A stretch of DNA of 64,000 bases from Hydra vulgaris (lineage: Eukaryota > Cnidaria > Hydrozoa > Anthoathecata > Hydridae): NCBI RefSeq assembly GCF_038396675.1, contig NC_088934.1, positions 32,572,001-32,636,000 of the forward strand. Reading direction: 5' to 3'. The notes beneath the pieces were generated by a model. That model was not told the origin of the DNA. It made no database searches and saw only the letters and a program-made list of their open reading frames with translations. A program made the position numbers and the translations under genes. This document shows positions 39,578 through 44,727 of this stretch, in pieces (position 1 is the stretch's first letter; the number at the start of each line of letters is the position of its first letter).

Positions 39578-39955
39578 ATATATATATATCTATATCTATA
39601 TCTATATATATATATATATATATATATATATATATATATATATATATATATATATATATATATATAAATATATATATATATATATATATCTATATCTATA
39701 TCTATATATATATATATATATATATATATATATATATATATATATATATATATATATATATATATATATATATATATATATATATATATATATATATATA
39801 TATATATATATATATATATATATATATATATATAGATATATATATATATATATATATATATATATATATATATATATATATATATATATATATATATATA
39901 TATATATATACAGATATAGATATAGATATATATATATTCATTTATATATATATAG
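39578..39955. repeat. (TA)n array with GATA/CTATA interruptions
   Basis: About 375 bp of TA repeat directly follows hAT B; its first 8 bp are the hAT target duplication. Confidence 0.97.
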
Positions 39956-39960
39956 CACCG

Positions 39961-39989
39961 CTCATTTAATTAAAACAGTAAGGAACAGC
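39961..39989 (+). other. 29-bp exact copy of P-type transposase coding sequence
   Basis: These bases (starting CTCATTTAATTAAAACAGTA) equal the coding strand of the transposase at 32163-32135, the region encoding [10 protein letters not shown]. They stand alone between TA tracts, like filler DNA at a repair junction. Confidence 0.9.
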
Positions 39990-40773
39990 ATATATATATA
40001 TATCGCTAATACAAGAGAGGACTAGAATTTTTTTTTATAGATAAAATATTTTTCCGTATAAATTCTAAATTTTTGAATGTTTGTTTTCTGGTTTTGATAT
40101 TTTTAGCCATAATTTCATTTAAAGTTTTTCATTTTCACGAGTTTGAGTATGGTAACATTGTATATAGATATATATATATATATATATATATATATATATA
40201 TATATATATATATTTATAAAATATATAAAAAGACTTATCTAACTTTTTCTAATTTATCTTACTTTTTACTAATTTATTACTGCTCTGTTCTTTAAGAACA
40301 TTGAGCACTCTATTTGTAAAATACACTAACATAATTTACATATATATATATATATATATATATATATATATATATATATATATATATATATATATATATA
40401 TATATATAATACATACAATTTATAGTAGGGTGACCTGACTGAGGTAGGAGCTCCTTAAACTTGGATGGCAATCTTCCTAGTGGTAGTGTCACAATAGAAA
40501 TACCCAGTTCTGACCTTAATGAAACAACACTCTCTTTCACTACAAATCAATCTGAGCAGAAAGTTAACCTGAAAATTTTTGTTTATTATAAATTTAAAAC
40601 TATTGTGTGTATATTTTAATTTTGTTTTACATTTTGATCAGGGTCCTTTGGATTTAAATTCTTATGGGCATTACCTATGACTTATTGACACAAACAAATC
40701 AAAACATTTTCTCAAATTAATATTTTTAATGACAAATAAATTACTATGCCAAGTATGTTTTTATGAAGTTTGT
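39990..40773. other. P-like element 1 non-coding middle: TA arrays and a LINE-tail scrap
   Basis: (TA)n arrays lie at about 40163-40214 and 40340-40408. Bases 40255-40310 (CTGTTCTTTAAGAACATTGA) resemble the sequence before the orphan LINE tail at 14500. The rest is featureless. Confidence 0.5.
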
Positions 40774-40789
40774 GGCTATGAAAATAGCC
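40774..40789 (-). promoter_or_regulatory. Histone-type 3' stem-loop (copy 3), after the zinc-finger gene
   Basis: On the minus strand, GGCTATTTTCATAGCC is flanked by AAAAAC and ACAAAC. It lies about 30 nt beyond the zinc-finger gene stop at 40820, the usual distance for histone genes. Confidence 0.55.
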
Positions 40790-40819
40790 GTTTTTGAATG
40801 TGATATTACATTAAACTAT

Positions 40820-41827: not shown

Positions 41828-42106
41828 ACTTTGTGCACTCTGTTCCTGGCCGTTCGACAGTTTTCAAGTGTTTTTAACGAATATTAGAAAAATCACATAA
41901 TACGGCCCGAGTGACCAGACTATCTATTTCTTATGACTATGGTATAACAAATATATATTAAGCTGAGATGAAACTCAAAGAACAGCTGAAAGCATAGTTT
42001 ATAGACTTAACTGGTTTGGAAACTCGGTGTTTTGCGTAAAAAAAAACTCATTAAGGTGAACGCTGTGATCACGTGACATTGACGGTGCACAGCACAAAAA
42101 TTTACT

Positions 42107-43462
42107 ATGGCTTCAGAGAGAGAAGACGATGACTATTTTTGTAATAATGACCTTATAATGCTATTGGAAAGTTTTGAAAAAGATATTGAACTTCAAAATT
42201 ATACTGAAGCTATTGTCGAAGATGTTAGTACTTTTTCCTAGTAAGATAAAAAAGTGAAAAATGTTTCTTTATGTAAATTATTTACGTAGCATAAACAAAC
42301 ATTTGTTTTTAGGTTTTTTTATTAGTGATCAAATTAAGCGAAAGATAAGCGATTGAGTGACTGATTATATTTTGTTTTTTAAACATATATCTTACTTAAA
42401 ACTATTTTTAGCTTAGCCCTGGATCCTTCCCATGTAATGTATGCGTTAAAGTTTTTAGAAGTAAAGGAGGGCTGAAATTGCATATCTCTAAAAAGCACCC
42501 CAACAATATTATCGTTGATGAACCTGTTAATAATCCAGTTTTTAACACTGAGATTTTGTTCTCACTACTAAAAAAAGTGTCTTGCAAGATTATAGAAAGC
42601 TCAATTTATGGTGACAAAATAATTGAAATTGTTTAAAAATTTCAGGTTGACCAGATAAAAGATGAGATTCAGTTTGATAGAATAATTGAAACTTGTAGTA
42701 AAATTTCTCTAAAAAGTTTGAATGAGTTTTATGCAGATTATTTTGGCAGAATAGTAATCAACAGTAGGCAAATTTTTAATTGTGATGCTGAATATGAAGA
42801 TACTGCTACATTATTATTAGGCAAACTTGCTGACAGCATAGCATCTTATTATAGGGCTAATATATCTAGTGTCAGTGATAAAAAGATATCAAGTAGACAA
42901 ACAATATGTGAAAGGGAAAAGTATGGCTTGCAATATCTAGGAGGTTACTGCATCCACAAATTAAAAAAAAAAATCCAAAGTTTTCGAACAAATAATGACA
43001 CTGCTATGCAACAAGCAATATCAATATTAAAAAGCTGCCAATCTGAAACAAAAAATATTCCAGACCAAAAACTTATCAATGCTCTTAGCCGTGGAGGACT
43101 CACTGGTATAACAATTGAGTTTGAGCAAATATTAGTTATAGCGGAAAAAGCATTTTGTTTATATACAGAACAGTCAGAATTAACTAAAAGCATAGACAGA
43201 TTTCTTGACAGAAAAAACATTAAATGATCAAGATATAGATGAATATTACAGGGTTATTCTTGAAAGCTGTGATTTAAAAATTCAAAAAGATATACAAAAA
43301 TCTACTTTGTGTTCAATACTGAGATTATATTTTAGAGTTCGAAGTCATTCATTTGTCAAAGACATTGTTAATAAACACAAAGCAAAAAAAAAAACAGGAG
43401 AACTATCTAAAAAAGGATTACGTACTAATATGAAACAATCACATAAACTGAAAGACAAATAA
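42107..43462 (+). pseudogene. C2H2 zinc-finger companion gene of P-like element 2
   Basis: Exon 1 (42107-42240) encodes an acidic leader (MASEREDDDYFCNNDLIMLL). A GTAAG...TTAG intron (42241-42416) joins in frame to a complete C2H2 finger (CNVCVKVFRSKGGLKLH, second His four residues on). A helical region follows with YGLQYLGGYCIHKLKKKI, LINALSRGGLTGITIEFE and a C-terminal LRLYFRVRSHSFVKDIVNKH plus a Lys-rich end at 43462. One in-frame TAA (about 42634) and one frameshift in an A run (about 43215) break it. The finger is intact here but not in the P-like 1 copy. Homology in order and sequence with 40820-41827 supports a conserved second gene of these transposons. Function is unknown. Confidence 0.7.
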
Positions 43463-43534
43463 TATATATATATATATGTAGTTTTATAAAAGTTTTGAAT
43501 AGAAATAGTTGTTATAATGTAAGTAGTTTGTAAA

Positions 43535-44515
43535 TCATGTTTTTTTTCTCTTTCTTTTTGGTATAAGATCTTCAGACACATTTATCCAAGACTTTTTTTT
43601 TATATAAGAGCCTCTAGTATTTCCAGTGTTAAGCGAAACACTTCTTTGGATGCGTGTTGCATTAGAATTGTATCCAAACTGTTTAGCATCAGGGTTATCT
43701 GAATGTCGCCCTATTTGTCTTTGAGCACTGAAATATTTCTCTAATGGATCTTGACAAAATCTATTAGTAAGTACATAAGACATACCCTCTGCTAACAGAA
43801 ACCTTGTAACTTCTACAATTGAGTTACATGTCATTATTAGGCCTTCATGAGTCTGATGTGAAATGAACATTTTATCCTTAGCCTCATAAGAGTATTGACA
43901 ACTAGAAGTATTGTCCACTCTTTCATCTATAGATCTTTTCCAGTCTTTAAAATAATCCAAAAAATCATTTAAAAGGAAATTAAATCGTAAATCATTTTGG
44001 TCTGTGTATTTTTGAAGGAAAGGTTTTATATTAATTTTATGTTCTTCAAGAGATCTACTGTTAACACAATCAAAAAACATGTCCATTTTTTCACAAAAAC
44101 TAGCTGTCTCTTTATGTTCCTCAGTTCCAAAGGTTTTCAAAACAGATGCTACGGTTTGACTTAAAATTTGGGTAGCTAGTTTTACAGTCATAGCAGAGTA
44201 AAAGTTTATGTGTATGTGCTCATTAGTTAACTTAGGCATAAGTTTTAAACCATCGTCTAAATCTTCATAATACAATTGAGTAATGTGCTGCCACAGAAAG
44301 TATTTTCCATTGTTCCACAAGTAGCGTGTACATTTTCCTGCGCCAGAGTTTAATAAGCAATTTCGAGCAGTTTTCATCAGGTGTGGTGGGTCTGCTACAA
44401 AGTATATGTATCTATATTTGGCATACAAATTTATTGTTTTAAAAATAACAGGAGTATTCATATCTCCACACATATAACGGTGAATTTTAATCATTGTTCG
44501 GTCAACACTGTTCAA
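43535..44515 (-). pseudogene. P-type transposase, 5'-truncated (P-like element 2)
   Basis: An open frame of 326 codons covers the C-terminal half of a P/THAP9-type transposase: PPHLMKTARNCLLNSGAGKC, YLWNNGKYFLWQHI, FYSAMTVKLATQIL, SHQTHEGLIMTCNSIVEVTR and NRFCQDPLEKYFSAQRQIGR with the catalytic Glu, ending in a basic KRKRKKT tail. The THAP domain, coiled coil and first catalytic Asp are missing, and only about 200 bp separate the frame from the terminal repeat. An internal deletion has therefore removed the 5' half. The remaining frame has no stops, unlike most relics here. Confidence 0.85.
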
Positions 44516-44727
44516 TGATGTACAAAAAAAATCACTTATAAATAATCACTACAGATAATCTGTGAAATAAAGGAATAATCTGTTTGCAATATCACTTAGC
44601 AATAAACGCCGTAAAAAGTTTGTGTGCACTGTCACGCTTCATTTACGCTCTATTTTTGTGTCAAAAGGTTAAACAATAGATTTTACGGAGTTTCCAAACC
44701 AGTAAAGTCTATAAACTATGCTGAAAG

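Follow-up and report, generated by a model that had tools for sequence, protein, structure and literature searches.

Convergent gene pairs in P-superfamily transposons of Hydra vulgaris point to a probable split of the transposase over two genes

The window analysed here (C15:32572001-32636000, 64,000 nucleotides of the 911.5-Mb, 15-contig assembly of Hydra vulgaris) contains two P-like transposons, each of which was proposed in the initial annotation to hold a P/THAP9-type transposase gene and a convergent gene for a C2H2 zinc-finger protein. This layout raises the question of whether the second gene belongs to the transposon and what its protein might do there. Both elements and both convergent C2H2 genes were recovered, but the transposase gene of P-like 2 proved to be only a GBD/RNaseH_C remnant.

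The P-like 2 element is a deletion derivative of 2728 bp from TIR to TIR (41993..44720). Its termini are CATAGTTTATAGACTTWACTGGTTTGGAAACTC, the 33-bp TIRs (left, 41993..42025, + strand; right, 44688..44720, - strand) differ by one mismatch, and the 7-bp TSD CTGAAAG is present at 41986-41992 and 44721-44727. The second gene, ZF2 (42107..43462, + strand), consists of a first frame with an ATG at 42107 and an acidic leader, a C2H2 finger frame (42412-42636) and two downstream frames (42637-43227 and 43196-43462) with CTD (C-terminal domain) homology; this copy is damaged, with a stop in frame at 42634-42636 and a change of frame around 43196-43227. The read-through ZF2 query was 95% identical to P0001 across 78% of its length. 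Facing this gene, the transposase remnant (43535..44545, - strand) matched the Pfam families of GBD and RNaseH_C only (PF21788, E 2e-18; PF21789, E 1.7e-5), and neither THAP nor RNaseH_N was found in it with Pfam. The same arrangement recurs in the family: P-like 2-type transposase sequence was found, convergent every time, in 29 of the 30 best second-gene loci (L001-L030, the window copy included, with L027 repeating L019 and L028 repeating L021). Both ends were visible in 10 of these best 30 loci, and as they lie only 2310-2841 bp apart, these loci are short derivatives; their 7-bp TSDs were perfect in eight cases and had one mismatch in two, and an 8-bp TSD fitted none of the 10. At L014 (C3:43071045-43073645), an open 834-codon transposase frame adjoins a second gene that shares 87% identity with the P-like 2 one and has three stops in the matched part, which makes it a candidate longer relative of the family.

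The initial annotation had placed both elements within 39578..44720, which is correct for P-like 2, but P-like 1 extends outside this interval, to 34203 in the present order. Its transposase comprises an N-terminal frame (33157..34032, - strand) with the THAP domain of the P superfamily (PF05485, E 2.7e-6, 28.5 bits against a cut-off of 23.9), a main frame (31448..33208, - strand) with RNaseH_N (PF21787, E 1.3e-28) and GBD (PF21788, E 2.2e-15), both far above the cut-off, and, in the same frame past the stop, a C-terminal tail without a CTD (31313..31447, - strand). The main frame also matched PDB 6p5a_A (E 4e-11). This gene is damaged as well: its frame changes around 33157-33208 and is interrupted by a stop at 31448-31450. 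The second gene, ZF1 (40820..41863, - strand), lies in three frames (41534-41863, 41068-41595 and 40820-41167). Open-frame copies of each gene are present elsewhere in the Hydra assembly.

In the present order, end A of P-like 1 (TIR CATAGTCATAAG..., 34172..34203, - strand) and end B (41910..41941, - strand, with the TSD GTATAAC at 41942-41948) have the same orientation, because the segment 30534-35524 between two hAT-like copies is flipped. These copies form the left arm (26475..30533, - strand) and right arm (35525..39583, + strand) of an inverted repeat of 4059 bp each and are 100% identical; their putative hAT label comes from a DUF659 match in the right arm (31.0 bits, below the cut-off of 34.7). 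Since the two arms are identical, the inversion may be genomic or a choice made in assembly. Flipping the segment back gives inverted ends with GTATAAC at both flanks, in an element of 10087 bp (6028 bp if one arm is subtracted). In addition, a locus from a different contig, L062, follows the order of the un-inverted P-like 1 (blocks of 79-97% identity), has no hAT-like insert and carries as its second gene an open 415-codon frame related to ZF1. The initial annotation's statement that P-like 1 shows the convergent layout once the inversion is undone was thus confirmed, both by the restored TIRs and TSD and by the uninterrupted layout of L062. Like other members of the P superfamily, which have TIRs and a 7- or 8-bp TSD, both window elements are bounded in this way, in each case with 7 bp.

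Two further features were observed around the inversion. A Mutator-like transposase fragment lies inside the inverted segment (34386-35036; PF20700, E 5.5e-23). At 39961-39989, beside an AT repeat, 29 bp exactly match part of the P-like 1 transposase (around HLIKTVRNS) and adjoin a short stretch shared with about 30530-30547; this segment resembles filler DNA left behind by the rearrangement.

To place the window elements in the context of the genome, 80 transposase rows were merged into 75 loci and the second-gene rows into 172 loci, both lists being lower bounds in which only the best candidates were scored. By coordinates only, a second gene lay within 10 kb of at least 33 of the 75 scored transposase loci, whereas 200 runs of random placement (which assumed a length of 52 Mb for C4) gave 0.35 paired loci on average and never more than 3. 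The paired genes are separated by 202-3521 bp, and 32 of the 33 pairs are convergent, the sole exception being the inverted P-like 1 of the window, whose transposase was paired with ZF2 in this count because ZF1 is not among the second-gene matches. Among transposases with a stop-free frame of at least 600 codons, at least 16 of 23 were paired. The initial annotation had stated that the pairing should be regarded as accidental nesting if the zinc-finger gene usually stood alone or with unrelated elements; the count, far in excess of random expectation, refutes this reading.

The association also held in more distant families and when approached from the transposase side. Five divergent second-gene families were sampled by one 8-kb stretch each, picked by open frame with the neighborhood unseen, and a convergent P transposase was found in all five; in L051, the transposase frame has 758 codons and the second-gene frame 339. 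Three of the five elements showed both ends and a perfect 7-bp TSD (L053, 4951 bp; L054, 5935 bp; L055, 5692 bp). Conversely, 12 of the 75 transposase loci were picked by transposase only and the 4.5 kb downstream examined: a second gene was present in 10 of the 12 flanks and convergent in all 10. The two misses, L063 and L065, look truncated, as their match to L062 and L060, respectively, breaks ahead of the second-gene position. As for co-conservation of the two genes, their distances co-varied over seven element pairs (Mantel r 0.86, 32 of 5040 permutations), with the second genes of L062 and P0001 standing in for the damaged ones of the two window elements. Unlike the fly P element with its single gene, the P elements of Hydra are therefore recurrently two-gene transposons.

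What the transposase gene (gene 1) encodes is incomplete in one respect. Both RNaseH_N and GBD (PF21787 and PF21788, Pfam) were detected in 10 of 10 relatives tested, and the CTD family PF12596 matched none of these 10. The 586-codon frame of P-like 1 aligns with 6p5a_A until residue 554 of 569. A catalytic motif was recognised in 90 of the 120 listed homologs, where the protein ends 39-139 residues past the motif start, and the CTD motifs searched for were found in none of the 120. The CTD that Drosophila P and zebrafish THAP9 carry in the same protein is thus missing from gene 1.

The longer members of the second-gene (gene 2) family share one architecture, with an acidic leader, one C2H2 finger, a helical region, YLxGY/RGGL/RVRS blocks and a basic tail. 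The modelled fold matches residues 617-734 of the Drosophila P transposase; in two models, the match spans nearly all of the resolved Drosophila CTD and includes the same two sequence blocks. PF12596 was the family most frequently returned for the second gene, with best E values of 0.0012-0.0013, but all listed scores lie below the 22.6-bit cut-off. The helical block and basic tail of the second-gene protein are homologous to the C-terminal domain of P transposase, a relationship that was missed when the protein was initially described as a possible target-site or end-binding partner, although that description pointed in the right direction. Both models further predict a long C-terminal helix rich in basic residues (P0127, 335-390; P0003, 307-356), which would fit a target-facing helix. 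As gene 1 lacks a CTD and gene 2 has one, the missing piece of gene 1 is the piece found in gene 2.

We consider it probable that these are cut-and-paste transposons of the P superfamily with a split transposase, encoded by two convergent genes. Gene 1 would supply the THAP, HTH, RNase H and GTP-binding domains and end shortly after the catalytic Glu, and gene 2 would supply the acidic leader, the C2H2 finger, the helical region and the P-transposase CTD with its long basic helix. The two proteins would meet at the transposon ends, where the finger may add DNA or partner recognition. In Drosophila, the CTD sits on a disordered linker and packs on another subunit, so that unlinking it without loss of function is plausible, and a CTD so loosely tethered could plausibly come from a second gene.

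Other explanations have to be weighed against a split transposase. The window region is dense in nested elements, and an unrelated zinc-finger gene could have landed there by accident; however, convergent pairs recur within common TIR/TSD limits in several families, and gene 1 and gene 2 distances vary together. With 33 of 75 loci paired against 0.35 expected, and 32 of them convergent, accidental nesting was rejected, and we give it almost no weight. It is also quite improbable that gene 2 encodes an end- or target-binding accessory factor whose likeness to the CTD is mere structural background. Harbinger, with its Myb-like partner protein, offers a model for such a factor, and the longer members, with their acidic leader, lone C2H2 finger and basic tail, would suit it, but the two models that match almost the entire resolved Drosophila CTD, with the same two sequence blocks, speak against it.

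A trans-acting regulator, the other role suggested in the initial annotation, deserves somewhat more attention. Gene 2 would then be a repressor or cofactor limiter, its CTD copy would occupy the transpososome and gene 1 would transpose alone. P proteins in truncated form (66 kDa, KP) act as repressors of transposition in Drosophila, according to excerpts of PMC7776569, and the P-like 2 derivatives retain gene 2 after the N-terminal half of the transposase was lost. This is nevertheless unlikely as gene 1 is without a CTD of its own whereas the fly transposase has one, so that gene 2 fills in a missing part rather than copying it; moreover, gene 2 is preserved no better than the transposase remnant in the P-like 2 copies. 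The balance of this evidence favors the split transposase.

The genes of the P-like 1 clade have a further peculiarity, a hairpin (AAAACGGCTATTTTCATAGCCACA) 3' of their stop codons. The copy after the P-like 1 transposase (31192..31237, - strand) matches the histone 3' stem-loop (Rfam RF00032, 34.8 bits, E 2.3e-6), and the same hairpin follows the ZF1 stop (40769..40795, - strand), where it was not among the matches at the Rfam gathering score. That score, 34, was exceeded at 31192-31237 and in L062 and L063 (34.8 bits). In L055-L067, 19 Histone3 matches were obtained at E up to 0.5, the 17 others scoring 23.6-33.4 bits, and all 19 are in the sense of the gene that they follow; 10 of the 13 loci have a match 3' of the transposase, and 9 of the 11 loci that possess a second gene have one 3' of that gene. 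A perfect hairpin of this shape was seen in 15 of 30 three-prime flanks, which are related copies and leave out six transposase flanks without a located stop; mononucleotide shuffles predict 0.012. The tested flanks of L051-L054 and P-like 2 had no such hairpin. A third copy in the window (22131-22157, + sense, 2 mismatches of 27) has no detected P-type gene nearby.

On the sequence evidence, these matches suggest histone-type 3' ends on the transposon genes of the P-like 1 clade, but the hairpin could instead be a protein-binding palindrome. A more elaborate model, which we put forward only tentatively, is an obligate two-subunit cnidarian transposase whose ssDNA/target-contacting CTD is carried on a separate zinc-finger protein; in one clade, the mRNAs of both subunits would end in histone-type stem-loops. 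If this were true, both subunits would be made together without poly(A) tails and assembly would be limited to S phase. Histone-type 3' ends, should they work, would give a transposon a new means of timing its activity to DNA replication.

The two-gene type is apparently not confined to Hydra. A search with the second-gene profile returned 29 proteins (E up to 10), 28 of which had E values below 1e-31; the matches include proteins named Montipora capricornis and Rhopilema esculentum. The second-gene exon P0152 and the transposase P0066 are each listed with a longest contig of 16659 bases and are probably on one and the same contig. Elements of this kind in other cnidarians may likewise have the second gene facing the transposase.

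P transposase is a textbook transposase and yet, to our knowledge, what its CTD does has been learned largely from a single structure. A naturally split P transposase would allow a clean test, in which the CTD is added or withheld in trans. The second gene can also serve as an annotation marker for many cnidarian "uncharacterized" zinc-finger proteins. In the titles and abstract openings retrieved from open-access literature, a body outside of which lie Repbase Reports and most subscription papers, we found no two-gene P element, no separately encoded P CTD and no transposon with a histone stem-loop; a two-gene P element may possibly be described already in Repbase Reports or subscription papers.

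The Hydra elements resemble Drosophila P (PDB 6P5A) in their THAP domain, their TIRs, an RNase H domain into which the GBD is inserted, and a homologous CTD with the same motif blocks. They differ from it in that their CTD, joined to a C2H2 finger, is encoded by the second, convergent gene, and in their 7-bp TSD, whereas fly P encodes a single transposase polypeptide that includes the CTD and makes an 8-bp duplication (excerpts of PMC7776569). Galileo, another Drosophila member of the P superfamily, likewise has a P-type transposase and mostly 7-bp TSDs, but its TIRs are long and the excerpted text of PMC4168063 mentions no second gene. Zebrafish THAP9 is a P-type transposase with a THAP domain, but its C-terminal domain is described within the same protein in the available part of PMC10983969. 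The hairpins share with the histone 3' UTR stem-loop (RF00032) a six-pair stem, A-rich 5' and ACA 3' flanks and a place after the stop codon, but follow transposon genes and mostly score below the gathering score. Their fifth pair is A-U, unlike that of the usual histone stem. A transposase divided over two genes recalls the two-gene RAG-like transposons, which belong to another transposase superfamily and have another partner than the Hydra P elements. In RAG-like transposons (RAG1L/RAG2L), as excerpts of PMC7204232 describe them, transposase and partner gene are likewise convergent between TIRs.
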